Shown here one piece after another: positions 7,053 through 18,438 of a stretch of 30,167 bases of DNA (within the stretch, counting starts at the first letter, position 1; the number at the start of each line of letters is the position of its first letter). This DNA is from a virus: the IMG/VR virus record IMGVR_UViG_3300034107_000065, positions 1 to 30,167 of that record. One strand, written 5' to 3'. The notes beneath the pieces were generated by a model, which did no database searches, was not told where the DNA came from, and was given only the letters and a program-made list of their open reading frames with translations. The position numbers were made by a program, and so were the translations under genes.

Positions 7053-7246
7053 GGCTTAGTCCCCATGAACTTAATGTTGGGTTGTTCTTTGCGTAACTCT
7101 GCATACTCCAACTGCACACGTTGGGCATTGATAATCTTACCCGCCGTGTTGTTCATTTCGGTAGCAACTTTTACGTCGACCGTACCGTTCTTGAGTCCCT
7201 CATACAAAGCGGACAGTTCTGTTGTTAGTTCACTGATATGTTTCAT
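7049..7246 (-). CDS. Conserved-type small phage protein, 65 aa
   Basis: MKHISELTTELSALYEGLKN, then VKVATEMNNTAGKIINAQRV and QLEYAELRKEQPNIKFM. The N(N/T)xAGKII-xxQxxxLEY pattern is one I know from many small uncharacterised phage proteins encoded near replication genes. Wholly helical apart from the end. GGGAG is upstream of the ATG; the start overlaps the preceding gene by 17 bases. Confidence 0.8.
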   Translation of the reverse strand: MKHISELTTELSALYEGLKNGTVDVKVATEMNNTAGKIINAQRVQLEYAELRKEQPNIKFMGTKP

Positions 7247-7868
7247 CTTTAAGCTCCCAAAGTTTGCGTTTAATAAAAAGTCTGATACGTGCCGCTTCGA
7301 TCAACTCGGGCGACATTGTGGATTTATACAACCCTCTGATATAAGCATCAGAAGCTTTGACGGCCTGTTTTTTAGCTTTTGCTCGGGCTATCTCAGGGTG
7401 AGCCTTGCGGTGCGCATCCTGACGTGCTTTGATTTTTTCTTTGTTGGCTTGTTCGTATTCTTTTCTCTGTGCCGCTATCCTTTCTTTGTTGGCTTCTCTG
7501 TATGCTTTCTCATGCGCTTTGTTGGCTTCATGCCAAGCTTTATGCCTTGCTTTCTCGCGTTCTAAGTTAGCTTCACGATTAGCTTTTCGTTTTGCGTTCC
7601 TTGCCTCCTTGTTAGCTTCATGGTATTTTTTGGCACGTTCAAGCACGTATTCTTTGTTGGCTTCTTCCCACTCCTTTCGTTTCGCATAGACGTGTTCTTT
7701 ATTATTTTCAAAATACGCTTTGGCCTTGGCAGCTATATGTTCCTTGCGAGTCGCACGATACGCCTTCCGTTTGGGCGCTTGTATTTCCTTGGTCGCTAAG
7801 TAATACGCTTTTCTGTACTCCTTGATAGCTTCAAGTTCGGCTTCGCTCTTAGCGGCTTTGAGTTTCAT
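7230..7868 (-). CDS. Lys/Glu/Ala-rich helical repeat protein, 212 aa
   Basis: Residues ~35-165 are a degenerate repeat of about 13 residues around the unit (K/R)-x-(Y/W/H)-x-E-A-N-K-E, for example EWEEANKEYVLERAKKYHEA, KAWHEANKAHEKAYREANKE and EYEQANKEKIKARQ. The very high charge suggests a long single helix or nucleic-acid-binding rod. The C-terminus (SDAYIRGLYKS, then LIEAARIRLFIKRKLWEL) is a separate helical unit seen at the end of several phage proteins. Such ANKE repeats usually accompany an HNH nuclease domain, but no HNH residues are visible here. GGAG upstream; 4-base overlap with the previous gene. Confidence 0.75.
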   Translation of the reverse strand: MKLKAAKSEAELEAIKEYRKAYYLATKEIQAPKRKAYRATRKEHIAAKAKAYFENNKEHVYAKRKEWEEANKEYVLERAKKYHEANKEARNAKRKANREANLEREKARHKAWHEANKAHEKAYREANKERIAAQRKEYEQANKEKIKARQDAHRKAHPEIARAKAKKQAVKASDAYIRGLYKSTMSPELIEAARIRLFIKRKLWELKDETYQ

Positions 7869-8059: not shown

Positions 8060-8574
8060 TTACCTGAGCCACCGAAGTACGTAGCAAGGATGCTGTACAA
8101 CCGCTTGGCATCAAACAAGCTAATATTATTTACGATCTCTTGCACATGGTCAGGCGGGTTCTGTTCTTCCACCAGTGCTGTAATGCCTGCTGTAGAAGTT
8201 CTAAGCTTAGAAGTTTTTGGTTTATTTACCTTACCTTCCCGCTTGGCAGTAGCCTTAGCTGACTTGATAGGGGAGTACTCTTTCCCATTGGGGCGTAGCA
8301 ACCCGTCGCTATCTTTATAGATATGCCCTTGCCGTATCATCTGACCAAGCAGTGATGACACAGATGACTTCTTATGTCCTTGCTGCACAAGGACTCGGAT
8401 TGCGTCGTTCCGAGTACAGCCCGAGTTATCACGGACAAAGTTAAATGTCTTCTTTGATACGTTGTTTGTAGGTGCGAACAATTTAGGTCCTTTAGGTTGT
8501 TCAGTTGTTTCGATTGTTTTGGGTTCTTCCCAAGTTCGCAATATCTTTTGCATTTCTGTTTGAATATCAGGCAT
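8056..8574 (-). CDS. Winged-helix-like DNA-binding protein, 172 aa
   Basis: Start set at ATG 8574 (MPDIQTEMQKILRTWEE): GAGG lies 6 bases upstream and the overlap with the previous stop is 8 bases. Residues ~45-95 (NFVRDNSGCTRNDAIRVLVQ, KKSSVSSLLGQMIRQGHIYK) have the helix-turn-helix and wing spacing of MarR/winged-helix folds. A Lys/Arg-rich linker follows (SAKATAKREGKVNKPKTSKL), then a helical C-terminus. The linker codons overlap a copy of the dispersed 20-base palindrome (8199-8212). Probable transcription or replication regulator; target unknown. Confidence 0.7.
   Translation of the reverse strand: MPDIQTEMQKILRTWEEPKTIETTEQPKGPKLFAPTNNVSKKTFNFVRDNSGCTRNDAIRVLVQQGHKKSSVSSLLGQMIRQGHIYKDSDGLLRPNGKEYSPIKSAKATAKREGKVNKPKTSKLRTSTAGITALVEEQNPPDHVQEIVNNISLFDAKRLYSILATYFGGSGK
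8199..8212. repeat. Dispersed palindrome copy R1 (inside a CDS)
   Basis: Perfect TTCTAAGCTTAGAA, flanked by AG and GTTT as in the other copies. The only copy inside a confident coding sequence; in that frame it encodes part of KTSKLRTS. Confidence 0.9.
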
Positions 8575-8740
8575 CGTCATCCTCAAATAAGTTAAGTTGT
8601 TTAGGGTCAGGCATGGTGTGCGCTAAGTCTTGCACGTCACGCAGTCGCATTTCCAGTCTTTCGCTTAATACTTTTATTAAACCCGTATGCCCATCGGCGT
8701 ATCGGATTAGTTCTTCGTCGGTCAAGTTGTCATAGTTCAT
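8567..8740 (-). CDS. Hypothetical small protein, 57 aa
   Basis: Reads MNYDNLTDEELIRYADGHTG, then LIKVLSERLEMRLRDVQDLA and an acidic tail (LNLFEDDDA). The NLTDEEL start and the amphipathic helix with leucines at 3-4 residue spacing suggest a short helical dimer. GGAG lies 5 bases before the ATG; the start overlaps the previous stop by 4 bases and the end overlaps the next ATG by 8. No family recognised. Confidence 0.75.
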   Translation of the reverse strand: MNYDNLTDEELIRYADGHTGLIKVLSERLEMRLRDVQDLAHTMPDPKQLNLFEDDDA

Positions 8741-9099
8741 CTAAGCTCCATAAAGTTAATAAGATTGTTGTCGTCGTCGGTTGTGAACCATACGATGTTG
8801 TCAGGCGGGGGCACGTTCACTTTCTTGAGATGCCCACCTACCGTTGCGACTGCCCTGATTCTCTCTAGCCAATCAGGTAAGTCTGTCACTATCCCACGGG
8901 ATGCTTCCTCGTGTCCGTCACGCCATCGCTTAAGCGTGTAGTCACCATCACGTTCTTCGTATCTGCATTCATACATAGGATTGTCTTTGTGGTATCCAAG
9001 TTTATGTTCTAGCGTTCGAAGGGCGTCGGACTTTGCTCGCCCATGTCTGTCTGCTACTTCCATGATCTCAGTTACCATCGCCTTCACTTTCCCCATCAT
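8737..9099 (-). CDS. Hypothetical protein, 120 aa
   Basis: MMGKVKAMVTEIMEVADRHG then a charged, mixed alpha/beta region (YECRYEERDGDYTLKRWRDG) and an acidic end (WFTTDDDNNLINFMELR). A second ATG three bases on is better spaced from the GGGGG ribosome binding site, so the start could be 9096. It overlaps the DUF3150-like gene by 32 bases. Function unknown. Confidence 0.65.
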   Translation of the reverse strand: MMGKVKAMVTEIMEVADRHGRAKSDALRTLEHKLGYHKDNPMYECRYEERDGDYTLKRWRDGHEEASRGIVTDLPDWLERIRAVATVGGHLKKVNVPPPDNIVWFTTDDDNNLINFMELR

Positions 9100-9994
9100 C
9101 TATCCCCCAATCAAATGCACCAAGGATTTCGTCCACCTTGATTTTGGTTAAAGCACGAGTGCTATCTTCTTCTCTCAATTCTTTAGGTGTTACCCCAGAC
9201 AATACCTCCTCAAGCTTACGCGCAGCTTTCGTCAACGCAGAATCTCCAGTTATATTCATCACATGCAACAACTCGCACAACTCCACGGCATTGGTTACCG
9301 TTGTGTCGTGAAAGGTATTCTTCTTGCCATCCTCGCTGACAGTCAAGCGATCACTTAACTTACTGATAGCCTTGTACAACCGAGTCCATGAGTCTTGGTT
9401 AGCTGCCTTGATCTTGGCATCAAGCTTCTCCTCGTACTGCTCGATCAACTGGCGTTGTACCTCGCTCTCAATGTCTAACCTAAAGTCACCGCCAGTAGGC
9501 AAGGGAGTGAACGATGTCTCCATACGGAAACGCTGTGCTACCTTACCCCTGCTTGGGTACTCGCCACGATCAAACAATGTGCCAAGTTGGAACGCTGCCC
9601 CTGCTACGAGGGTCTCGTACTTGTCCAAGAACGCATCGACCAAACGATTGAACTCTGTGTTATACCTACCCATAACCTTTTGATAGTCAAGCAGTGCTGC
9701 AGTGGGCAACAGTCTTGCACCTTGGTCATTCCATGGGAGAGTCAAGCGATAGTGTTCGGCTCGGGCACGGGCTTGGAACTTGGTGATAGCTTCCAACTCT
9801 TTGCACTCAGCAAATAAGTTTTTGTATACCGATGCTGCTTTCTTGGAGCCTGACCCCTTGGCATTGGTGACCTCGGCTTGCGTACTCTTGTCTTGCTTAC
9901 GACCCGAGTAGACTGCGATGTTTAAGTCCACCATCATGGCGGAACGTGCGACGCCTGCAATAGGCTTTTCTGTTTCAATTGTGTAGTAGTTCAT
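9068..9994 (-). CDS. DUF3150-like protein
   Basis: 308 residues. VDLNIAVYSGRKQDKS near the N-terminus (~23-38), HYRLTLPWNDQGARLLPTAA (~81-100), the long helical middle with YPSRGKVAQRFRMETSFTPL, and a C-terminal helical region (LCELLHVMNITGDSALTKAA) match my memory of the DUF3150 family. In phages and proteobacteria this family is encoded with a MoxR/CobS-type AAA+ ATPase and a VWA protein, and both are present here (12751-13821 and 10678-11850). It may be a substrate adaptor or a component of the complex; its activity is unknown. There is no Shine-Dalgarno; palindrome copy R2 lies immediately upstream. Confidence 0.75.
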   Translation of the reverse strand: MNYYTIETEKPIAGVARSAMMVDLNIAVYSGRKQDKSTQAEVTNAKGSGSKKAASVYKNLFAECKELEAITKFQARARAEHYRLTLPWNDQGARLLPTAALLDYQKVMGRYNTEFNRLVDAFLDKYETLVAGAAFQLGTLFDRGEYPSRGKVAQRFRMETSFTPLPTGGDFRLDIESEVQRQLIEQYEEKLDAKIKAANQDSWTRLYKAISKLSDRLTVSEDGKKNTFHDTTVTNAVELCELLHVMNITGDSALTKAARKLEEVLSGVTPKELREEDSTRALTKIKVDEILGAFDWGIDDGESEGDGN

Positions 9995-9999
9995 GATAG

Positions 10000-10013
10000 T
10001 TCTAAGGTTAGAG
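10000..10013. repeat. Dispersed palindrome copy R2 (degenerate)
   Basis: TTCTAAGGTTAGAG, one mismatch in the last half-site. Lies 6 bases upstream of the DUF3150-like start codon. Confidence 0.8.
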
Positions 10014-10280
10014 GTTTTTAGAAAGGTTGTCGTTGATTTTCATCGTCAGCTTAACTGTGTCGATGTAGTCTTGGTTCACTGGTGCTACAGTGAATAGCTC
10101 GTGTGTTACGACCGGCTTGATAGTCGGTACGTATGCGTTGTTGTACCCTTGCGAGCCTAGGTTGTTGCCCACATGCGTTTCAGTTAGTTGTTCGGCAAAC
10201 GACAACGTGTCGGTAAGAATTTCAAGTTGCCTTGCATCTATCAAAACGCTGTGCCCGTTGATGGTCATCTTAAATTTCAA
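10008..10280 (-). CDS. Hypothetical protein, 90 aa, TTG start
   Basis: Reading begins at TTG 10280 (M)KFKMTINGHSVLIDARQ; GAGG lies 7 bases upstream and the TTG overlaps the previous TGA by 4 bases, while the first ATG (10268) is 19 bases from that site. The short N-terminal beta hairpin (INGHSVLIDARQLEIL) is followed by a helix and a C-terminal half with hydrophobic strands (TIKPVVTHELFTVAPV). Not recognised. Confidence 0.65.
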   Translation of the reverse strand: MKFKMTINGHSVLIDARQLEILTDTLSFAEQLTETHVGNNLGSQGYNNAYVPTIKPVVTHELFTVAPVNQDYIDTVKLTMKINDNLSKNL

Positions 10281-10645
10281 AATGCCACCTCTATTGATCG
10301 TGATACATACATGAAGCCATTGGCGTCGCCAGTGCTATCGTCCTCAATGTCGTCGTCCTCTTCACCAAGACGCAAGAATTCGTACTCGTAGCCAAGACCT
10401 TGCACATCCGCTAAGAACTGAACGAACTTCCCAACCTCGGGGTACGAGTCGTACCATTTGATAGAGTTGGCATCGAATATCAACACGCGATGATCGTCGT
10501 CCCATTCAAAATACTCCTTGCCCCACGCCTCGAATACATCCTTGAACGTGGTGTTAAACAATAGCTTGAGCTTGTTGTACTCCAACAAGTTGTGTTCACT
10601 GTTTGCAGGGTAAATAAGCGCCTTCACATCTGATCTGTATCCCAT
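10277..10645 (-). CDS. Hypothetical protein, 122 aa
   Basis: Start at ATG 10645 (MGYRSDVKALIYPANSEHNL) with GGAG upstream and palindrome R3 just before it; a longer upstream reading has no ribosome binding site. Sequence is mixed alpha/beta with an acidic, aromatic middle (EAWGKEYFEWDDDHRVLIFD, SIKWYDSYPEVGKFVQFL) and an acidic loop (GEEDDDIEDDSTGD). MGYRSDV-x-x-x-IY with WYDSYP is a pattern I have seen in phage proteins encoded beside MoxR/VWA genes; function unknown. Confidence 0.8.
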   Translation of the reverse strand: MGYRSDVKALIYPANSEHNLLEYNKLKLLFNTTFKDVFEAWGKEYFEWDDDHRVLIFDANSIKWYDSYPEVGKFVQFLADVQGLGYEYEFLRLGEEDDDIEDDSTGDANGFMYVSRSIEVAF

Positions 10646-10660
10646 GATTTTCTCCAATAG

Positions 10661-10674
10661 TTCTAAGCTTAGAA
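10661..10674. repeat. Dispersed palindrome copy R3
   Basis: Perfect TTCTAAGCTTAGAA, in the leader of the 122-residue gene. With the adjacent ribosome binding site it forms a 35-base block identical to the one at R4. Confidence 0.95.
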
Positions 10675-10677
10675 GTT

Positions 10678-11850
10678 TTAGACTTCGACACGGATAGTCG
10701 TGCCGAACGGTGCAACCATATCGGTTGTGATAGCCCACAAGGTAGGCACATTGGTGTTACCCCAGTCACCTACATAGCCATCGGTAAACTGCACAATAGC
10801 TTGTGGGTTGATGTGGTTCTCACGAAGGTAGTCAAACAACACAGAACCATCCGTACCACCACCGCCCTTGGGTTTCATGTCGGCTACTGCAAACTGACCA
10901 TCCTCGAATGTTTGATGCCCTGCTACCTTGGTGTCCCAATAGATAACGTGTGTCTTGGTTGGCTTGACTTCCTCGATGATGGTCTTGATGTTGGAAACAA
11001 ACGCAGTCATCTCGTCGCCACCGAAACACGAACCCGACGTGTCGAAGCCGATAACAAGCTCTGTCATAGTAGTCCCCACCATAGAAGGCATGTAAACGTC
11101 GTAGCTCAAGAATCTACGATTAGGCTTACGCCATGATGATTCGTCACGACCTGCGCATGTCTCGGTGATGAAGTCACGCAAGACTTTCTTCCAATCAATC
11201 TTGGGTTGCAACAAGTCACCGAACGCACCATCCGCATCGCCTGCACCCTTGCCCTGCATCTTGCGACGCACGATCTCACCCTGACGAATGGCTCGTTGTA
11301 TCTCATTGCCACGCTCGGCATCTTTAGCAGGGTCACCGCTTGTTGCGTTCTCCCAATCATGCTCGTCGAACCCTTCACCCTCATCACCACCGCCACCACC
11401 CCCGCCTTCCTCTTGCTCTTGCTTAAGGTCTTCGAAGATTTGTTTGACTGACCACCCACGATACTTAGCATCAGGTTGCACACCTAACTCGGGCATCTTG
11501 ATGAACCCCTCGCCGTCATCCATATCTACTAAGGATAAGTTAACGAAGTGATCTGCTGCGATGTTGGCAAGTTGTGCATCCTCGTCATGCAATGCTGACC
11601 ATACTTGCAAGTGACGATACGCCTTGTGCTGACCCTCATGCAAGATGAGGAAGCGCAACTCAGGGTCGGTCTTCATGTGTTCTTCAATGAAGGCAGGGTT
11701 GTAGATTACATCCCAACCGTTAGTAGCTGCGGTAGGTACGTCGTCGTTTACCTTGACCTTGCCACATGCGAGGATACCGCTATACACACAGAACTTTTTG
11801 TGTTGCATGATAGCGATGTGTGCTTTCTTGATTCGATCTTGTACGTTCAT
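10678..11850 (-). CDS. Metallopeptidase-like plus VWA-like domain protein
   Basis: 390 residues from ATG 11850 (MNVQDRIKKAHIAIMQHKKF); GGAG upstream. The N-terminal domain carries a zinc peptidase signature LHEGQHKAYRH (HExxH at 71-75) as in DUF2201 N-terminal domains. A glycine- and glutamate-rich linker (~146-160) leads to a C-terminal VWA-like domain with a MIDAS-type D270-x-S272-x-S274 and a GGGGTDG loop (T333 D334). This two-domain form usually works with a MoxR-type ATPase, here at 12751-13821, in complexes thought to load metal or remodel proteins. Whether the peptidase is active is not known. Palindromes R3 and R4 flank the gene. Confidence 0.9.
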   Translation of the reverse strand: MNVQDRIKKAHIAIMQHKKFCVYSGILACGKVKVNDDVPTAATNGWDVIYNPAFIEEHMKTDPELRFLILHEGQHKAYRHLQVWSALHDEDAQLANIAADHFVNLSLVDMDDGEGFIKMPELGVQPDAKYRGWSVKQIFEDLKQEQEEGGGGGGGDEGEGFDEHDWENATSGDPAKDAERGNEIQRAIRQGEIVRRKMQGKGAGDADGAFGDLLQPKIDWKKVLRDFITETCAGRDESSWRKPNRRFLSYDVYMPSMVGTTMTELVIGFDTSGSCFGGDEMTAFVSNIKTIIEEVKPTKTHVIYWDTKVAGHQTFEDGQFAVADMKPKGGGGTDGSVLFDYLRENHINPQAIVQFTDGYVGDWGNTNVPTLWAITTDMVAPFGTTIRVEV

Positions 11851-11865
11851 GATTTTCTCCAATAG

Positions 11866-11879
11866 TTCTAAGCTTAGAA
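11866..11879. repeat. Dispersed palindrome copy R4
   Basis: Perfect TTCTAAGCTTAGAA between the VWA gene start and the stop of the 197-residue gene; that stop codon (TAA, 11874-11876) lies inside the palindrome. Confidence 0.95.
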
Positions 11880-12467
11880 GTTATGTGTTGTTGGGATAGG
11901 GAACTCTTCATCTCTATCTAGTCGTGATGCAATCATCTCAGCAAGGGCGATCTCTTCAACAGTACGCTCTCGTAAGAACACCTCTGCAATTTGTTTGCGT
12001 ATGGTAGATTGCCGTACAACAAGGGTGTGTGAGTTGACATGGGCAGCCTTAACTTTCTCTATGTGTTCCGAATGCCTGCGATCAATGGTCTTGTAATACT
12101 CATCCCTCTTTGGTGTGTAGTCGTTCTTCTTTATATCGTCGTAGCCCATCTTCTGCAGGGTGCAATCTGCCTCAAGCATGCCGATGATCTCTGACAAATT
12201 ACCCTCAGTGATAGGGCGTGGTGTACGTAGCCCCATGTAGTCAGCATCCGTTACCACATAGATAGAAGGTTTTATGTCGCCCAAGTCAAACACAAGGTTA
12301 CGCACCTTCTTGGTTTTGCTATACCACCCACCGTTGTGGATGCCTGTTGCAATACTCTTGCGCACCATGTTGCGCATTGTTTTAGTCAAGCGCATTGGGT
12401 TAAAGGTAGCCACGGTGACTACACCGGGTGCTTGCAGTTGCCTTGCGATTTTGTACATTTCGCTCAT
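11874..12467 (-). CDS. Hypothetical protein, 197 aa
   Basis: MSEMYKIARQLQAPGVVTVA leads into a basic segment (FNPMRLTKTMRNMVRKSIAT) and a beta-rich middle (VRNLVFDLGDIKPSIYVVTD). The C-terminal half is helical and charged (IRKQIAEVFLRERTVEEIAL). Not recognised. AAGGA precedes the ATG at 12467, which overlaps the upstream stop by 4 bases. It ends THNF-stop with the stop codon inside palindrome R4. Confidence 0.75.
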   Translation of the reverse strand: MSEMYKIARQLQAPGVVTVATFNPMRLTKTMRNMVRKSIATGIHNGGWYSKTKKVRNLVFDLGDIKPSIYVVTDADYMGLRTPRPITEGNLSEIIGMLEADCTLQKMGYDDIKKNDYTPKRDEYYKTIDRRHSEHIEKVKAAHVNSHTLVVRQSTIRKQIAEVFLRERTVEEIALAEMIASRLDRDEEFPIPTTHNF

Positions 12468-12640
12468 GATTTTTTCCTTGGTTGGTTATTTAAAAGTCCT
12501 GTTTGTAAATTCCATGCGTCTTTAGACTGCACGTAGTTAGGTAGTGGGCGTTGATACGCCCTGCTGATGCGGTTAGGATGCCAGTCTTTGTGTAGTCGCA
12601 CGATGGTGCGACCGTCGCTTGTTCGTTCTGTTATTAACAT
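12464..12640 (-). CDS. Hypothetical small basic protein, 58 aa
   Basis: Start at ATG 12640 (MLITERTSDGRTIVRLHKDW) with GGAG 6 bases upstream. Basic and polar (HPNRISRAYQRPLPNYVQSK), ending QPRKKS. Possibly nucleic-acid binding; no family recognised. Overlaps the tiny membrane ORF stop by one base (TGATG) and the next start by 4. Confidence 0.65.
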   Translation of the reverse strand: MLITERTSDGRTIVRLHKDWHPNRISRAYQRPLPNYVQSKDAWNLQTGLLNNQPRKKS

Positions 12641-12729
12641 CACGGTCTCCAATAAAATAAGTCAATGACTAGCACAATGATGGCTAGGGCTAAGATCAAA
12701 CGCTCGAGGCGTTCCCATGGTGTAAACAT
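12640..12729 (-). CDS. Putative 29-residue membrane micropeptide
   Basis: Reads MFTPWERLERLILALAIIVL then VIDLFYWRP. A charged N-terminus is followed by about 16 consecutive mostly hydrophobic residues and an aromatic-basic end, the form of a single-pass micropeptide. Its TGA overlaps the next ATG by one base. There is no good Shine-Dalgarno; palindrome R5 is immediately upstream of the ATG. Real translation is uncertain. Confidence 0.45.
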   Translation of the reverse strand: MFTPWERLERLILALAIIVLVIDLFYWRP

Positions 12730-12733
12730 AATG

Positions 12734-12747
12734 TTCTAAGCTTAGAA
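12734..12747. repeat. Dispersed palindrome copy R5
   Basis: Perfect TTCTAAGCTTAGAA just downstream of the MoxR-like gene stop and just upstream of the 29-residue ORF. Confidence 0.95.
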
Positions 12748-12750
12748 GTA

Positions 12751-13821
12751 TTAGAAGAACTTACCAAGCTTCGCTGCTTGGGTCGTGAACTTACGGCTAC
12801 CACATGCCATGCCTACCTTGGACTTGTTGGATGCAAGAGATGTAATGAACAACGCATGTGCCTCGAACGATTCGTTAGCCATACGATCTGAGTAGTCCAT
12901 AACTGCGTCGATAGTCTTAGCATCGACACGACCCGCCAACATGAATGCGAGAATGAACAACGCACCCGCACTTGTTGGAACCTTAGCCTTGAACGGGTCT
13001 TTCACAATGGTCTCAAACAATGGCAGTTGATCTGCTAAGTTGATGAGCGCATCCATATCCCTAGCTGCTGCTTCACCCACCGTACCTGCTAGTGCAGGGA
13101 GAGTGGCATCACCAAGTACGGATCGGAGTTTAATGATGTTGGATGCTTTCTCGAGTGAACGAGGCGAGCAGTATGCTTTCACGTTGCCCGTCAATGGGTT
13201 GAAGATGTAGGGATTCTTAGCCTTGGCATCGAGGTCTACGTAGCAGTCGAATACCTGCGGATACTGCTTGGCAAATGCCATTACCTCGGGGGCTATGTTG
13301 TTGTCTGATGCCCACTCAATCCACTGGTCAGCAGTTGGATTACCTAACACGGCTACAGTCATGCGGTTATACGCATGGGCAGGGATGTTGTCACCCACAC
13401 CATCTGTATCTAGGTTAGTCGTTGCAAATACTATTGAGCCAGTCGGCAAGGGTACGTCACCCACACGATGCTCGAGGATAGTCGGCAACAACATGTTCAT
13501 CACAGGGCGTGATGCTTTACCCAACTCATCAAGCATAAGTATGACGGGTCGAGTCTGATTCTTACCTACACCGAAGCGCACATTGGGTGCATACGATGTG
13601 GTCATGTTCTCTCGGTCAATGACAGGCATAGCCAAGTCACCGAGGTCTAAGTTTGCGCAGTCGATGTAGCACACCTGATAGTCAGGCATCTCACGACCCA
13701 GTGTACCAAGCAAAGACGATTTGCCTACGCCGGGCTGACCTCGCAAGAGGATGGTGTTTGTTGTACCTACGTTACGGATGAGGGTGAATGCCTGAGACAG
13801 GCTGAGGTTTAACGTGTTCAT
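12751..13821 (-). CDS. MoxR/CobS-like AAA+ ATPase
   Basis: 356 residues. Walker A GQPGVGKSS (28-36), Walker B VILMLDE (93-99), sensor 1 FATTN (132-136) and AYNR with an arginine-finger candidate R153. The shape matches the MoxR/CobS branch of AAA+ proteins, which act as hexameric ATP-driven partners of VWA proteins, as in magnesium or cobalt chelatases and MoxR complexes. The likely partners are the VWA metallopeptidase and the DUF3150-like protein downstream in the same operon; substrate and biological role in the phage are unknown. GGAAA lies 8 bases before the ATG. Confidence 0.9.
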   Translation of the reverse strand: MNTLNLSLSQAFTLIRNVGTTNTILLRGQPGVGKSSLLGTLGREMPDYQVCYIDCANLDLGDLAMPVIDRENMTTSYAPNVRFGVGKNQTRPVILMLDELGKASRPVMNMLLPTILEHRVGDVPLPTGSIVFATTNLDTDGVGDNIPAHAYNRMTVAVLGNPTADQWIEWASDNNIAPEVMAFAKQYPQVFDCYVDLDAKAKNPYIFNPLTGNVKAYCSPRSLEKASNIIKLRSVLGDATLPALAGTVGEAAARDMDALINLADQLPLFETIVKDPFKAKVPTSAGALFILAFMLAGRVDAKTIDAVMDYSDRMANESFEAHALFITSLASNKSKVGMACGSRKFTTQAAKLGKFF

Positions 13822-13853
13822 TTTGATTTCCAGTTGAATAAAAGGTTTGAAAG

Positions 13854-13867
13854 TTCTAAGGTTAGAA
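13854..13867. repeat. Dispersed palindrome copy R6
   Basis: TTCTAAGGTTAGAA (GG centre) in the 73-base gap upstream of the MoxR-like gene. Confidence 0.9.
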
Positions 13868-13894
13868 GTTTATGAAAATAGGCTTTCGCCATGC

Positions 13895-14653
13895 TTACAA
13901 GACGTATGTCTCAGAACGAGACACAACATACATTGTCTTTTTACATTGAGCCATGATGCGTGCCCAACATGCTTTTGCATCTGCTCTTTCGGTGTACTCG
14001 TACCCACCATACGAATAAGTACGCTCGAATTTGTTGCGAGAGATATAGGTCTTCCACTGATCGGCTTGATTGTTATCTGTCAGTGTGTCGGGTAGGCATA
14101 TCCCAAACATGGGAACCCGTAGTTCAGCATCTTCTACTGTTGTTACGGCATACAGTAACTTGAACGCATCGGTAAACCCTGACTCTTGCAAGTCGTTGGC
14201 TAGTTCTTTGGTTGCGACTCGATCAACTTTCTTCTGCTCGAACGCTTGAAGTGGCGTGATGATGTCGCCTTGGGCATTGAGTGTGATGCCGTCATAGAAG
14301 TAGTAGAGCTTGTTGTGTACACGGAGAGTTGGTTGGCTGTAGCTGAAGATGCTACGCTTGTGCAAGTTTAAGTACACCATGTCAGTCATGAAACCAAACG
14401 CTTCGTTGAGGCGGATGATCGTGGTGTTATGTGTGTGGTATCCGTTGGTGTCGATCTTCACATCGCCATTCGGATAGGCAGTAATGATGTCGGTGCTATA
14501 CATGCGGATGCGCATGGTGTCGTCGTTACCCTTGACCACACGATAGTGGTCCATTGCACGTCGGTGCGCATTGGCAGGGGCGCTGCCCTTGTTCTTGCCA
14601 CGCTTATACATGTGGCGCTCAAGGTGCATTGAAAGTTTTGTGTACATGTTCAT
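13895..14653 (-). CDS. Hypothetical protein, 252 aa
   Basis: Begins MNMYTKLSMHLERHMYKRGK, basic and histidine-rich, then a beta-rich region (DDTMRIRMYSTDIITAYPNG, GYHTHNTTIIRLNEAFGFMT) and an aromatic middle (VHNKLYYFYDGITL). The C-terminal third is helical with KACWARIMAQCKKTMYVVSR. GGAG lies upstream of ATG 14653, with palindrome R7 just before it. Not recognised; an uncharacterised large phage protein of the early operon. Confidence 0.8.
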   Translation of the reverse strand: MNMYTKLSMHLERHMYKRGKNKGSAPANAHRRAMDHYRVVKGNDDTMRIRMYSTDIITAYPNGDVKIDTNGYHTHNTTIIRLNEAFGFMTDMVYLNLHKRSIFSYSQPTLRVHNKLYYFYDGITLNAQGDIITPLQAFEQKKVDRVATKELANDLQESGFTDAFKLLYAVTTVEDAELRVPMFGICLPDTLTDNNQADQWKTYISRNKFERTYSYGGYEYTERADAKACWARIMAQCKKTMYVVSRSETYVL

Positions 14654-14669
14654 TTGATTTCTCCAATAG

Positions 14670-14683
14670 TTCTAAGGTTAGAA
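14670..14683. repeat. Dispersed palindrome copy R7
   Basis: TTCTAAGGTTAGAA in the leader of the 252-residue gene; contains the stop codon (14678-14680) of the 73-residue gene. Confidence 0.95.
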
Positions 14684-14899
14684 GTTAGTTGTTTGCTTGG
14701 GGTTGAGTTGCATTAGTATTGTTCGGTCAGTCACTACAATACAGTTAGACTTATTCATCGGCACAATGGTGTGTTTAACCTTGCGCGATTCGCTTTCACC
14801 ACATGCCATGCAAGTGGGTCGTTTCATGTGTTTGCGCTGAGGTTCGACCCTCACGGCATAACAACAAGTGCAGATTGGTAGGTATAAGTTTTCGCTCAT
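14678..14899 (-). CDS. Zinc-finger-like small protein, 73 aa
   Basis: Cysteine pairs CTCC (~10-13) and CMAC (~30-33) with a basic spacer (VRVEPQRKHMKRP) resemble a zinc ribbon. It starts at ATG 14899 with AAGGGA upstream and ends TTNF-stop with the stop inside palindrome R7. Probably a nucleic-acid or protein-binding small factor; family not recognised. Confidence 0.7.
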   Translation of the reverse strand: MSENLYLPICTCCYAVRVEPQRKHMKRPTCMACGESESRKVKHTIVPMNKSNCIVVTDRTILMQLNPKQTTNF

Positions 14900-14943
14900 G
14901 GTGTTCCCTTACAGTTTGTCTAGCGTCTATACGGCTTGCGAAC

Positions 14944-14960
14944 CAACGGCTTAGCCGTTG
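14944..14960. repeat. Hairpin in gap before the zinc-finger gene
   Basis: Perfect 7-bp inverted repeat CAACGGC / GCCGTTG with a 3-base loop and no T-run, so not a terminator. Lies in the 99-base gap between 14899 and 14999. Confidence 0.7.
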
Positions 14961-14998
14961 ACATTCGTACCCTTCCATCTCATCTTGAAGCAGTCGGG

Positions 14999-15289
14999 TC
15001 ATGGTGTTTCCAACTGGTACAGCACTTGGTTGCGTCGATCTTCAAGTATCTTGCGGTCGTTCTCGTCGGGTACTGCTTGATTCAACTCGAACAGACGCCA
15101 CTCTTCGTATGAGTAGGGGAAGCGTTGCAACTGTTTGTAAAACAACCTTGCGTTGCAGTCAGGACACCACGGGCTATACGATTTGCATGGCGTTGTGCTA
15201 CGGATAAACCACATCTTGTTCAAGTCTTCTTTCCACGATGGGTTAGCCATGCGGTCGAGTATCTTGTGCTTGTTCTTACGTACTTTCAT
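14999..15289 (-). CDS. Hypothetical protein, 96 aa, cysteine motif
   Basis: Start at ATG 15289 (MKVRKNKHKILDRMANPSWK), GGAG upstream and 4-base overlap with the previous stop. Contains CKSYSPWCPDCNARLFYKQL (three cysteines, partial zinc site), then FPYSYEEWRLFELNQAVPDE and a C-terminal helix. Not recognised. Confidence 0.75.
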   Translation of the reverse strand: MKVRKNKHKILDRMANPSWKEDLNKMWFIRSTTPCKSYSPWCPDCNARLFYKQLQRFPYSYEEWRLFELNQAVPDENDRKILEDRRNQVLYQLETP

Positions 15290-15543
15290 TTGCGTAACTC
15301 CACGATGATTGTTAACTTGTCGTATGTGTCGGCATCTATCTCTTGCCAACGACCGACGCCTGCCATCTTGTCCCCGAAGTCGTAAAGGGTTGAGCCATCT
15401 TCATGCTCATGCACATCACCCCAAAACTCAGAGGCGATCTTGTCCAAACATTCGAGAGGGTGACCATCTGTTTTAAACTTGACCATCGTGCTTACCTCAC
15501 TCTCACCAAAGTAAGTCTCGATTTCTCCGATGTAACATTTCAT
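15286..15543 (-). CDS. Hypothetical protein, 85 aa; first robust gene of the main leftward operon
   Basis: Start at ATG 15543 (MKCYIGEIETYFGESEVSTM) with AGGAAA upstream; palindrome R8 lies 15 bases before it. Mixed alpha/beta, acidic, with CLDKIASEFWGDVHEHEDGS and WQEIDADTYDKLTIIVELRK. It resembles uncharacterised small phage proteins of early operons. It follows a roughly 610-base leader from the promoter at 16163-16191. Confidence 0.8.
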   Translation of the reverse strand: MKCYIGEIETYFGESEVSTMVKFKTDGHPLECLDKIASEFWGDVHEHEDGSTLYDFGDKMAGVGRWQEIDADTYDKLTIIVELRK

Positions 15544-15557
15544 ATAGTTTCCTAAAG

Positions 15558-15571
15558 TTCTAAGGTTAGAA
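15558..15571. repeat. Dispersed palindrome copy R8
   Basis: TTCTAAGGTTAGAA in the leader of the 85-residue gene, between it and the hairpin-dense stretch. Confidence 0.95.
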
Positions 15572-15575
15572 GTTT

Positions 15576-15802
15576 GGTGCGGTATGCACCCAAGAGGGGA
15601 CAGCATCCCCTCCCAGTTGAATACAACTTGTTAACACGGCTTGTGCCGTGAGTAGTCTTGTCTTTGCTTTGTTTACTACGATAGGGGTTGTCGTTCACGT
15701 ATAGCCTGACCCATGTCAGTCCGTGTTCCCGTGGTTGTCTTAGCGGTAGCATCCCGAGGTGCTACATAAACTCCACTTAGCAGGCTTGTGTGTTTCCACA
15801 CA
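15576..15802. other. Hairpin-dense leader segment
   Basis: Seven short inverted repeats in 227 bases: 15576-15590 (GGTGC/GCACC), 15594-15612 (GAGGGGA/TCCCCTC), 15635-15650 (CACGGC/GCCGTG, loop TTGT), 15652-15679 (GTAGT/ACTAC), 15706-15719 (CTGAC/GTCAG), 15746-15765 (GTAGCA/TGCTAC), 15787-15802 (TGTGTG/CACACA). None has a T-run. On the - strand this is transcribed as part of the operon leader. It may be a structured RNA; weak ORFs also cross it. Confidence 0.55.
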
Positions 15803-15912
15803 TAGACCCGCACCCATTTAGGTAGTGTGCGTATGCTTTGCATGTTGCTATCGTCTTGCTGACTCTTGCCTATAAGACATACACCACAACATACTGGGGC
15901 TGAACCCAACAT
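15676..15912 (-). CDS. Uncertain ORF, 78 aa
   Basis: AGGTGA lies 5 bases before the ATG at 15912, giving some support. Sequence opens MLGSAPVCCGVCLIGKSQQD and contains LPKWVRVYVWKHTSLLSGVY then APRDATAKTTTGTRTDMGQA. The WVRVYV motif recurs as WVRLYV in the overlapping frame of 15552-15752, so this could be one frameshifted gene, two small genes, or chance readings across a structured leader. No family recognised. Confidence 0.3.
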   Translation of the reverse strand: MLGSAPVCCGVCLIGKSQQDDSNMQSIRTLPKWVRVYVWKHTSLLSGVYVAPRDATAKTTTGTRTDMGQAIRERQPLS

Positions 15913-16042
15913 CTATTCACCTAGGGAGAATCCATGACCTGCACTCTTGGGAGTCTTAGTGCCTCTATTTTTGGCGGGTCTGCATCTATATGGCTTCTGC
16001 TATAAAAAGCAGCGATGGCTCGAAGGTCTCGGGTATCAAAAG

Positions 16043-16056
16043 TTCTAAGGTTAGAA
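16043..16056. repeat. Dispersed palindrome copy R9 (most symmetric)
   Basis: Core TTCTAAGGTTAGAA; here the flanks also match, giving a perfect inverted repeat with 10-base arms AAAGTTCTAA around GG (16039-16060). It lies about 100 bases downstream of the promoter at 16163-16191 and after the boxA. Confidence 0.95.
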
Positions 16057-16089
16057 CTTTATAAGATACACAAAAACCTAACTGATAAA

Positions 16090-16103
16090 TTGTTAAAGAA
16101 CAA
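16090..16103 (-). promoter_or_regulatory. boxA-like antitermination element
   Basis: On the - strand TTGTTCTTTAACAA, followed by TTTATCAG. This closely resembles the boxA region of enterobacterial rRNA leaders (CTCTTTAACAATTTATCAG), where NusB and S10 bind the RNA to allow processive antitermination. Its place about 55 bases after a consensus promoter, with a small GGCT/AGCC hairpin at 16121-16136 between, fits a nut-like leader for the 15-kb leftward operon. Function is inferred from similarity and location. Confidence 0.65.
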
Positions 16104-16162
16104 GGTCTGCACATAGGAAAGGCTAGACACCAAGCCGAGGCGTTACTCGACTTGATAAATCA

Positions 16163-16191
16163 ATTATAACAGAATATAGGTATCTTGTCAA
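16163..16191 (-). promoter_or_regulatory. Consensus sigma70 promoter for the main leftward operon
   Basis: On the - strand TTGACA (16191-16186), 17-base spacer, TATAAT (16168-16163): both hexamers are perfect. It begins only 6 bases beyond the stop of the 158-residue gene and points into the boxA leader. A TTGAT/ATCAA inverted repeat (16152-16163) overlaps the presumed start point and could be an operator. Confidence 0.9.
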
Positions 16192-16196
16192 GCGTT

Positions 16197-16673
16197 TTAT
16201 AGTCCGTCTACCTCATCCCAATCCTTCAGAATTTCGGGGTTCTTTGGCGCATTTTTGGGGTCATCCCGTTTTCCTTCTGCAACGATTTGGTGAATACGAA
16301 TCTCGGACAGTTGGTATTCCTTGGCGAGTATGTGGCGTTTCACACCGAGCATGGCTCTGCGGTATACATCTGCATCTCGTTCTGCTCGTAGTTGTTTTAG
16401 GGGCGTGGTGGTTGAACCCTTGGCGGTTCGTTCATCTAAGCATTTGGAGATTGCTTTCTTGATGGCAGCGTGTTGGCTCATGCCGTGGGTGACTGCATAG
16501 CCTTGGGCAATGCTGAGGTGTTTCTCGCCTAGCTTAAGCCACAGTTGCAATGCGGCAATCGCAGCGCCTTCTAAGCCGTCGTCGTGGGTCTTTGCCAATT
16601 CTTCTGCAACTGAGATGGGTAGTTCAATAGTGAGGGAGTGGGTCTCGAAGTTTGCCGTGGTGGATGTTGTCAT
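16197..16673 (-). CDS. Probable DNA-binding regulator, 158 aa
   Basis: An N-terminal segment (SLTIELPISVAEELAKTHDD, then GAAIAALQLWLKLGE) has the strand-helix-helix look of ribbon-helix-helix proteins. The C-terminal segment (MLGVKRHILAKEYQLSEIRI, then HQIVAEG) looks like a helix-turn-helix. The middle is basic (KQLRAERDADVYRRAMLG). It is flanked by palindrome R10 upstream and the main leftward promoter downstream, so it is a good candidate to bind the palindromes or the GTTAC repeats; that is inference from position. AAGG lies about 9 bases before the ATG, and -10-like TATACT is at 16710-16705. Confidence 0.7.
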   Translation of the reverse strand: MTTSTTANFETHSLTIELPISVAEELAKTHDDGLEGAAIAALQLWLKLGEKHLSIAQGYAVTHGMSQHAAIKKAISKCLDERTAKGSTTTPLKQLRAERDADVYRRAMLGVKRHILAKEYQLSEIRIHQIVAEGKRDDPKNAPKNPEILKDWDEVDGL

Positions 16674-16718
16674 AGTAAAGTGCCTTGGTGGTTGTGGGGA
16701 TTTGAGTATACTATAAAG

Positions 16719-16732
16719 TTCTAAGGTTAGAA
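16719..16732. repeat. Dispersed palindrome copy R10
   Basis: TTCTAAGGTTAGAA, next to -10-like TATAGT/TATACT (16705-16715) upstream of the regulator gene, so a bound protein would block that promoter. Confidence 0.95.
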
Positions 16733-16753
16733 GTTTTGCGAAGTATAGATGTT

Positions 16754-17175
16754 GTTACGTTGTAACAAAAGGGGGGTCGGGCGTTACAAAGAGGCGTAAC
16801 TATAGCGGGAAAATGGGGAAGTGAGCAACCATGCGGGTTGCGGGAATTGTATAGTTATAGTATAGCCGTGGAATGTGTTGTTTTTATGTTGAAGTTACAC
16901 TGTAACAGGGTTTTCGGGATTGAGCGAGTCAAAAACCACACTATAGAATTATAACGACCACGAACTCACAAAAACCAAGGGTATAGTATAGCCTGATTTT
17001 GACCGTCTGAATTCCTAAAAAGCTGTTACAATGTAACAATATAATATATTATATCTATATCTCTCTCTCTCTCAGAGTTTTTGAAACGCTTAGTATTACT
17101 TTTGCAGGGCTAGTAGCAAAAAAACAACGTTACGGAGTTTTGTAACAAACTGGGGGTGTTTTGTTACATTGTAAC
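16754..17175. repeat. GTTAC-N3-GTAAC palindrome array
   Basis: Four 13-base copies of GTTAC-NNN-GTAAC at 16754-16766, 16894-16906, 17025-17037 and 17163-17175, spaced 140, 131 and 138 bases apart. Two more pairs have the same arms with 8-base spacers (16783-16800 and 17129-17146). Such iterated dyads are typical of initiator or repressor binding sites. Confidence 0.85.
17038..17073. repeat. AT-rich tract followed by CT repeat
   Basis: About 20 bases of A/T directly abut the GTTAC palindrome at 17025-17037 and run into an alternating CT tract. It resembles the easily melted element next to iterons in replication origins. Confidence 0.6.
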
Positions 17176-17189
17176 GCGGATTGCAAAAG

Positions 17190-17203
17190 TTCTAAGCTTA
17201 GAA
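17190..17203. repeat. Dispersed palindrome copy R11
   Basis: Perfect TTCTAAGCTTAGAA in the gene-free region, 14 bases after the last GTTAC palindrome. Confidence 0.95.
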
Positions 17204-17239
17204 GTTTCCCGAGAAAGTCATAGTTGTGCCACCACAAAG

Positions 17240-17253
17240 TTCTAAGGTTAGAA
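17240..17253. repeat. Dispersed palindrome copy R12
   Basis: TTCTAAGGTTAGAA, 50 bases from R11, the closest pair in the family. Confidence 0.95.
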
Positions 17254-17768: not shown

Positions 17769-17819
17769 TGTCCCTTTGGTTTGGAACACTAGGGTTTCCC
17801 CTAGTGTCCCGTTTGGTTT
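17769..17819. repeat. GAAA-loop hairpin between direct repeats
   Basis: A 9-bp perfect stem (ACACTAGGG / CCCTAGTGT, 17786-17807) with loop GAAA when read on the - strand. It is flanked by near-identical direct repeats 17769-17782 and 17805-17819 (TGTCCC-(G)-TTTGGTTT). No T-run, so not a simple terminator. It lies between the 187- and 51-residue genes. Confidence 0.8.
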
Positions 17820-18381
17820 ACTTAGCTAAAACTGTCTCTTTGAAGTCAGGGTAAGTGGCGATAATGAAATCTACTAACTCACCCGCAAAGATCGTTTGAT
17901 TCAAAATGCGGGCTTGTGCAAGGGCTTTGCTAAGTGTTTTGTGCATTTCTGCAATGGTCGTCGTTTCCACTTTGCCCGCTTTTGTGGCGGATTCTGTTTT
18001 TGCGGTTTCCACTTTTTTAGCTTCGGTCTTTGCATTTGCAAGATTACGGGAAAACGGCACACCGGTTTCAAAGGCAATCCAAAAACAACCCTGATAGGTT
18101 TTAACTGTACCCTGTGAAATATATTTGTCGTTTGCCAACTTTTCGAATAACTCTTTTACCTCTTTGCGTGCGTCATTCTTTGCAGAATTGCCTCTCATGT
18201 AAAGCGCTTTTGTTGTTGTGCATGCGACAAGATGGGCATCAACAAGTTGTTGAATGAGTTTATCCTGCTCTTGGATACTCATCAGTTCTAAGTCATCATG
18301 CGCTTTTTTAGCGTTTGCGAATGATGCGACAATGCGGTTAATGATTGTCGTGCGGGTTGCGGGTTTTGTGGACTTAGCCAT
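17818..18381 (-). CDS. Hypothetical protein, 187 aa; first gene of a short leftward operon
   Basis: Start at ATG 18381 (MAKSTKPATRTTIINRIVAS) with AAGGA upstream. Residues ~1-110 are helical (DLELMSIQEQDKLIQQLVDA, KNDARKEVKELFEKLANDKY) and include a SQGTVKTYQGCFWIAFETGV stretch that could be a helix-turn-helix-like or recombinase-core-like element. A low-complexity Lys/Thr/Glu/Ala linker (~120-145) leads to a C-terminal helix (LSKALAQARILNQTIFAGEL). It is the first gene after a promoter containing a palindromic operator, a typical place for an early regulator; function not recognised. Confidence 0.7.
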   Translation of the reverse strand: MAKSTKPATRTTIINRIVASFANAKKAHDDLELMSIQEQDKLIQQLVDAHLVACTTTKALYMRGNSAKNDARKEVKELFEKLANDKYISQGTVKTYQGCFWIAFETGVPFSRNLANAKTEAKKVETAKTESATKAGKVETTTIAEMHKTLSKALAQARILNQTIFAGELVDFIIATYPDFKETVLAK

Positions 18382-18438
18382 CTTGATTCCTTTGAATAGC
18401 ATTGATTTAAATATCAGTCAAAATTAACTGACAACTTA

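Follow-up and report, generated by a model that had tools for sequence, protein, structure and literature searches.

A MoxR-type ATPase, a metallopeptidase-like VWA protein and a DUF3150-like protein encoded together in phages and on plasmids

CbbQ/CbbO and RavA/ViaA each combine a ring of MoxR AAA+ ATPase with a VWA partner bearing a metal ion-dependent adhesion site (MIDAS). Cryo-electron microscopy of NorQ/NorD showed a finger of the VWA protein inserted in the MoxR-type ring, and a twisting action was proposed (PMC13036017). Among phages, gp24 and gp25 belong to the 14 core genes of 25 N4-like phages, where the listing gives them only as 'Unknown' and 'vWFA domain' and the N4 genes are described as middle transcripts (PMC4193335); no published function for them was found in the literature searched. 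A MoxR AAA+/metallopeptidase-vWA pair of group 2.2 jumbo phages was proposed to act in virion assembly (PMC7824862), other phage ATPase/VWA pairs were interpreted as cobST (PMC8651126, PMC11288001, PMC9503304), and the paper on plasmid pCAR1 reports that a group of genes conserved in R478, Rts1, SXT and R391 includes one for a MoxR-like ATPase and one for a VWA protein (PMC2642839). We analyzed a 30,167-base viral record (IMG/VR record IMGVR_UViG_3300034107_000065), called the window below. An earlier note, made from its letters alone, had pointed to a MoxR-type ATPase, a VWA metallopeptidase and a DUF3150-like protein, and the three minus-strand open reading frames (ORFs) were found where it had placed them (12751-13821, 10678-11862 in the ORF list, and 9068-9994).

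What is new here is that DUF3150 is a recurrent third component, that the trio occurs on seven plasmids, and that plasmids pAR060302 and pGSUB1 combine DUF3150 with a second pair, which is CobT-like. Judging from sequence comparisons, we tentatively suggest, at a little less than even confidence, that the trio would form a MoxR-VWA machine that remodels proteins inside the cell and probably includes a zinc peptidase, with DUF3150 as an accessory. This machine would be common to phages and plasmids and would serve the establishment of invading DNA.

The trio was conserved beyond chance. The ATPase as query retrieved 45 distinct related viral loci, with an ATPase match in 45, a VWA match in 42 and a DUF3150 match in 37, several of them short or cut by contig ends. 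In 44 loci anchored on DUF3150 (distinct proteins, at least 7 kb upstream), the ATPase was present in 44/44 and the VWA protein in 43/44, the exception (L145) having 163 nt of DNA past DUF3150; where the ATPase was the anchor and at least 9 kb of downstream DNA was available, 23/23 loci carried both the VWA and the DUF3150 genes. The wider DUF3150 scan gave at least 555 relatives from at least 599 pattern matches, and 79 distinct loci were kept. The order ATPase-VWA-DUF3150 was found in 81 viral loci with all three genes (not deduplicated), and the linkage also occurs elsewhere in two further gene orders. The chaperone/chelatase-like ATPase-VWA system with a third gene that the earlier note had described is thus conserved, and it sits in a replication-gene arm, whose description as 'early' is inferred from gene order. 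The note had also assigned the trio to one operon, which the shared direction of the genes supports and the two small genes in each gap weaken.

Median identities across the loci were 88% for the ATPase (n = 45; biased upward, as the loci were found with it), 84% for the VWA protein (n = 42), 90% for DUF3150 (n = 37) and 89% for DNA polymerase (n = 13). Values were high as well for g64 (97%) and the exonuclease (93%), and lay at 57-65% for the neighbours g252, g62, g197, g153 and g90. By these values, the trio is conserved about as well as the DNA polymerase, and the genes in between less so. When the window was compared with six loci, amino-acid-changed codons amounted to 6-10% in DUF3150, 2-16% in VWA and 4-12% in ATPase, and to 26-37% in g153, 17-53% in g197 and 3-33% in g120; synonymous changes exceeded the others in every trio gene in 6/6 loci.

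The ATPase matched PHROGs family 1297 (5.5e-51) and, in Pfam, generic AAA and P-loop families only (AAA_5 at 21.3 bits, cut-off 22). The best PDB sequence match of its profile was midasin (1.5e-31), and PADLOC and NCBIfam scans gave only weak, generic AAA matches. In alignments of 16 sequences (the window, 8 related contigs, N4, CRP-7, a Rhizobium phage, 2 cyanobacterial phages and 2 plasmids), P30, G31, K34, D98, N136, R153 and R221 of the ATPase were invariant in 16/16. We take these to include the Walker A lysine (K34), Walker B (D98), sensor 1 (N136), the arginine finger (R153) and sensor 2 (R221); the note had numbered the Walker A lysine K35, which the alignment corrects to K34, and its D98 was right. 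Both Walker patterns were present in 69/70 ATPases, and L103 was without the loose Walker B pattern. In L123 the ATPase match is spread over two ORFs, and in L134 the DUF3150 match is likewise spread over two, which points to a split gene or an assembly error in each.

The VWA protein matched two Pfam domain models above their cut-offs, DUF2201_N (PF13203; 3.1e-29, 102.9 bits, cut-off 23.2) and DUF2201 (PF09967; 5.6e-15, 56 bits, cut-off 26.4). It also matched PHROGs family 1314 (1.9e-85), labelled 'HNH endonuclease', and this candidate function was dropped because the domains matched are a metallopeptidase and a VWA domain. The same label sits on many phage records, and the proteins matched here are of the DUF2201 metallopeptidase-VWA kind. 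The ORF list starts the gene (10678-11862) at a TTG at 11862, with the context TTGGAGAAAATCATG. Because this TTG falls, by eye, in the ribosome-binding stretch, the ATG at 11850 was taken as the start (390 aa), and with this start the earlier numbering of H71 is correct.

The motif HExxHxxxxH (H71, E72, H75, H80) together with N96, A98, D100 and N104 was invariant in 16/16 VWA proteins, as were the MIDAS residues D270, S272, S274, T333 and D357 in the same phage and plasmid sequences. Among 44 aligned VWA proteins of related contigs, H71, E72, H75, H80, D100, N104, D270, S272, S274 and D357 were all invariant, position 333 was T in 42 proteins and S in the other 2, and a single Ser occurred in each of columns 96 and 98. 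All three loose motif patterns occurred in 70/74 distinct VWA proteins; L118 and L140 missed one loose pattern each with the aligned residues kept, and L046 and L136 missed the NxAxDxxxN pattern. Structures were predicted for single chains of the VWA protein and the DUF3150-like protein. The VWA model has a VWA fold (Z about 10-12 over residues ~260-390) and returned mostly VWA domains in structure searches; profile matches of the peptidase domain to M48 and MJ1213 PDB chains were weak (0.007-0.1). The intact Glu of HExxH argues that the putative zinc site is catalytic. Proteolysis by the VWA protein, which the earlier note had raised on account of HExxH, is plausible, as the motif is invariant and keeps its Glu.

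The third window protein scored 16.6 bits (0.0049) against PF11348, under the gathering cut-off of 24.9, and is therefore called a distant DUF3150 homologue and not a member. Profile comparison linked it to one homologue from a phage and two from plasmids, with probabilities of 99.3-99.9. A protein of the Candidatus Manganitrophus plasmid reached 35.3 bits with PF11348 and matched a profile of the window clade and other relatives (1.9e-35), and the DUF3150 of pGSUB1 reached 321.6 bits and matched a second profile of this kind (3.5e-8); at the level of profiles, such intermediates join the window protein to the DUF3150 family. The predicted structure (mean predicted local distance difference test score 81, predicted template modelling score 0.48) gave 0 matches in the PDB at E <= 0.001. 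The VIA second look returned helical bundles (Z <= 8.4, mostly residues 180-299), which are uninformative on fold, and of 8 matches in the viral library at E <= 0.001, the 5 named were all from phages. DUF3150 was also sought in CRP-7 gp16 and in the Rhizobium phage gene after its VWA gene, with no profile match above probability 20. Genome contigs held 8 DUF3150 relatives, with the full trio in 3 (L056-L058) and a VWA end at the contig edge in L055. An ORF of L056 resembles the window terminase by eye, and L056 is probably phage DNA.

Annotated phages (50,697 records) gave 450 ATPase, 476 VWA and 3 DUF3150 matches. The three DUF3150 records (OQ594354, OL906435 and PP438419) differ in name and host and are identical in length (65,014) and match statistics, so they may be one genome. 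Among 72,556 plasmid records, the VWA protein matched 75 and a plasmid DUF3150 matched 44, and 17 of the 30 listed VWA matches were also among the 40 listed DUF3150 matches. Seven plasmid regions carry the trio, each gene confirmed by profile (loci L051 and L052, two of the seven, are themselves members of the profiles used), in the order ATPase-DUF3150-VWA in 7/7; the Simplicispira plasmid has several genes between ATPase and DUF3150. PLSDB types the Simplicispira, pBVIE02, C. taiwanensis and P. sprentiae plasmids as conjugative and pBB2 and the Variovorax and Rhodovastum plasmids as non-mobilizable. Genes of the PRTRC system (ThiF-family and others) lie upstream of the trio in 3/7 regions (L148, L150, L151), and a ThiF-type gene lies upstream in a fourth, pBVIE02 (L052).

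A second kind of set was found on the IncC plasmid pAR060302, where an AAA gene is followed in turn by a gene for 302 aa, by ssb, bet and exo, by a complete DUF3150 gene and by a VWA gene. The ATPase of this plasmid is of the CbbQ/NorQ type, and its VWA protein is CobT-like and retains an N-terminal HExxH. The same three gene kinds are present on pGSUB1, a Geoalkalibacter plasmid, with no recombination genes between them. These domain matches place DUF3150 beside two different kinds of ATPase/VWA pair on mobile DNA. The IncC DUF3150 matched 1,119/72,556 plasmid records; of these 1,119, 974 are typed conjugative and 715 have a match with at least 99% identity to the query.

The plasmid sets bear directly on the proposal that such proteins act as a chaperone of virion assembly that also processes structural proteins by proteolysis, which we consider rather unlikely for the trio. 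The proposal has been published for group 2.2 jumbo phages, with a precedent cited from an archaeal virus, ATV (PMC7824862). Against it, the trio is on seven plasmids, and terminase PF03237 was found in 0/9 plasmid records (the seven and pAR060302 and pGSUB1); the window trio lies in the replication-gene arm with exonuclease and DNA polymerase, on the strand opposite the terminase, portal and head genes; and the middle transcription described for N4 gp24/gp25 (PMC4193335) also speaks against it. The earlier note had argued that conservation implies a host target, which does not follow from conservation alone, since conserved phage genes also serve virion assembly. A better argument for a non-virion target is that the same trio occurs on plasmids without a clear terminase match, and because of these plasmids a virion role is probably not the answer.

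Cofactor synthesis, another suggestion of the earlier note, would mean that the ATPase and the VWA protein work like the CobS/CobT pair of cobaltochelatase and use CobN from the host to increase cobalamin. Phage ATPase/VWA pairs were read in this way in PMC8651126 and in the CRP-810 paper (PMC11288001), and the IncC VWA protein matches Pfam CobT at 26.6 bits (cut-off 26.1). The window VWA protein, however, matches only DUF2201 models and not CobT, and both CobN and the ribonucleotide reductase large-chain family were absent from 15/15 related phage records (59.8-68.5 kb, completeness unstated), with host CobN still possible. For these reasons a role in B12 synthesis was rejected as the leading explanation and is, in our judgement, very improbable. 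The peptidase annotation of cyanophage cobT was called mistaken in one paper (PMC8651126). N-terminal HExxH was seen here in CobT-annotated or CobT-matched proteins of two phages (L157, 3693-5645; L158, 4863-7406) and the IncC plasmid (L149, 39877-41673), with no cyanophage CobT among them, and the cyanophage annotation may, on such motif matches, deserve a second look.

Takeover and counter-defence, both named in the earlier note, are possible. The corresponding explanation, a protease machine that dismantles and cuts a defence protein or a DNA-binding protein of the host, seems to us unlikely. It would fit the presence of the trio in phages and conjugative plasmids, both of which invade hostile cells, the invariant HExxHxxxxH, and the recombination genes that adjoin the IncC DUF3150 and that, in phage Pag-Yong1, lie about 10 kb downstream of the trio. 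Set against this are the strong conservation and mostly synonymous change, unlike the usual fast-evolving counter-defence genes, and the weak, generic AAA character of the PADLOC and NCBIfam matches.

As for the remodelling machine that we favour, the AAA+ protein would form a ring, and the DUF2201 protein would dock on it through its VWA domain, with the MIDAS metal site gripping the target. By analogy with NorQ/NorD, the ring would rotate the VWA domain by ATP and strain the bound target, which the N-terminal zinc site might then cut, or else hold as a binding arm. DUF3150 may be a helical adaptor or a substrate-presenting subunit. The target would most likely be a protein that foreign DNA encounters as it becomes established, replicates or recombines in a cell, and neither a virion part nor a corrinoid. 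A bolder version, which we regard as doubtful, is a split protease driven by ATP and spread across mobile elements, with an AAA+ ring, the VWA-zinc peptidase and a DUF3150 adaptor. It would have arisen two or more times, with different ATPase/VWA branches joined to the same third protein, and would dismantle host proteins on or near invading DNA, aiding the establishment of phages and conjugative plasmids.

Several observations weigh against the remodelling machine. Phage rV5 has a VWA protein without HExxH, on the strand opposite to its ATPase, and therefore peptidase chemistry and tight linkage are not universal. The pair was found without a DUF3150 profile match in the stretches searched of N4, CRP-7, the Rhizobium phage, S-TIM66, Paride, pSYSA (Synechocystis) and a Rhodococcus plasmid, so the third gene is not obligatory. 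On the Candidatus Manganitrophus plasmid, DUF3150 is accompanied by an AAA gene of another kind, and 20.8 kb of this plasmid gave no profile match to the trio ATPase or VWA; 4/8 genome-contig DUF3150 relatives (L059-L062) have neither partner in the available DNA. In favour of virion assembly, virion proteins of roseophage RPP1 are encoded near its gp24/gp25 homologues (PMC4193335), and a virion-protein gene of cyanophage S-TIM66 follows one small gene after the pair. Terminase phrog_2 had one weak partial match (7.6e-7) among the 9 plasmids, in Rhodovastum; of the two terminase families used (PF03237 and phrog_2), phrog_2 is a poor control, as on N4 it matched only inside an annotated DNA helicase and not a terminase, and the Rhodovastum match is partial in the same way.

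The palindrome TTCTAAG[C/G]TTAGAA has 11 perfect copies in the window, and 14 copies with at most 3 mismatches, whereas 20 first-order Markov shuffles averaged 2.4 and never exceeded 4. The copies are dispersed over 8199-17253. The note's statement that the trio genes lie close to copies of it holds for all three starts (Table 1). A copy stands at most 46 nt upstream of five genes with listed starts (DUF3150, VWA, ATPase, g252 and g158), and likewise upstream of g153 and g106 if inner starts are used. With L002-L046 as comparison loci, a palindrome family of at least 4 copies was found in 32/46 loci and none in 14/46 (a partial test). Related phages have palindromes at some of the same gene starts with different half-sites (TTATAA in 9, TTTTAA in 7, TCTTAA in 6, TTCTAA in 6 and four others in 1 each). 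The palindromes thus look like operator arrays with switching specificity, which suggests that one phage regulator may control the trio genes jointly, its DNA specificity switching between phages. A 194-aa gene at the divergent edge (17818-18402) was the best separator, of five genes tested, of phages with the same and with different palindromes. Its median identity was 78% (minimum 40) among same-palindrome phages and 45% (maximum 77) among different-palindrome phages; the same trend was seen in all five genes, same-palindrome phages being closer relatives. The 194-aa gene had no match in PHROGs.

The leftward, minus-strand arm runs from the ATPase through two small genes, VWA and two further small genes to the DUF3150-like gene. 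Further left are small genes, a thioredoxin/glutaredoxin-like gene, DNA polymerase and exonuclease, and the translation at the left end of the window looks, by eye, like a SNF2-like helicase. On the opposite strand, the rightward arm includes the terminase, portal and major head genes; exonuclease, polymerase, terminase and portal proteins were assigned by a PHROGs scan. A 212-aa ORF at 7230-7868 is rich in Lys, Glu and Ala and has internal 45-base repeats and a weak HNH match. Near-identical DNA was sought in phage records, with no match.

Table 1. Trio genes, intervening small genes and palindrome copies in the window
Feature	Coordinates	Strand	Basis or position
AAA+ ATPase, MoxR-type, 356 aa	12751-13821	-	PHROG 1297, invariant residues, midasin PDB match
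DUF2201_N metallopeptidase-like domain and DUF2201 VWA domain in one protein, 390 aa	10678-11850	-	Pfam PF13203 and PF09967
Distant DUF3150 homologue, 308 aa, mostly helical	9068-9994	-	PF11348 below cut-off, profile links
g197, small gene in ATPase-VWA gap, fast-diverging	11874-12467	-	matched in 29/45 loci (some contig-end cuts), median identity 62%
g62, small gene in ATPase-VWA gap	12464-12652	-	matched in 40/45 loci, median identity 65%
g153, small gene in VWA-DUF3150 gap, 125 aa from inner start (ORF list: 10277-10738)	10277-10654	-	matched in 35/45 loci, median identity 61%
g90, small gene adjoining DUF3150	10008-10280	-	matched in 34/45 loci, median identity 58%
Palindrome, perfect copy	13854-13867		33 nt before ATPase start
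Palindrome, perfect copy	11866-11879		16 nt before VWA start (ATG 11850)
Palindrome, one mismatch	10000-10013		6 nt before DUF3150 start
Palindrome, perfect copy	10661-10674		7 nt before chosen inner start of g153

Compared with known systems, the ATPase/VWA pair is not new, and by its domains it is identical in kind to N4 gp24/gp25. N4 likewise has an AAA+ ATPase followed by a protein with DUF2201_N and DUF2201 (both matched in gp25 by Pfam), with hhalign probabilities of 97.2 and 99.8 for the two proteins; it differs in having no DUF3150 profile match in a 25-kb stretch and in its low identity to the window proteins (22-29%). The group 2.2 jumbo-phage pair has the same domains, with the peptidase fused to vWA, and is described there as a pair, without a third gene (PMC7824862); the plasmid trio argues for a wider role. 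Sets on pAR060302 and pGSUB1 share three components of the same kinds and a VWA protein with N-terminal HExxH, but their ATPase has a CbbQ_C domain, their VWA protein is of another family, and ssb-bet-exo lies inside the pAR060302 cluster. NorQ/NorD share the MoxR AAA+ ring and a VWA partner with MIDAS; the account of them describes no zinc-peptidase domain or DUF3150 (PMC13036017). They, like CbbQ/CbbO and RavA/ViaA, act in metal insertion or on other enzyme targets. MoxR-vWA ternary conflict systems resemble the trio in adding a third conserved protein to a MoxR-vWA core, but are marked, as that paper describes them, by VMAP, iSTAND, FtsH or beta-propeller and not by DUF3150 (PMC7159879). 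None of these markers was found in 10 window genes with Pfam or in the 3 window proteins with PADLOC, libraries that may lack such models. Neither the word DUF3150 nor a tie of DUF3150 to the ATPase/VWA pair was found in the literature searched (open-licence papers). The trio is set apart by DUF3150 and by its peptidase-like domain fused to VWA, and the plasmid trio with its recurrent DUF3150 partner offers a concrete alternative for the N4-like core genes, namely a shared remodelling or protease machine.

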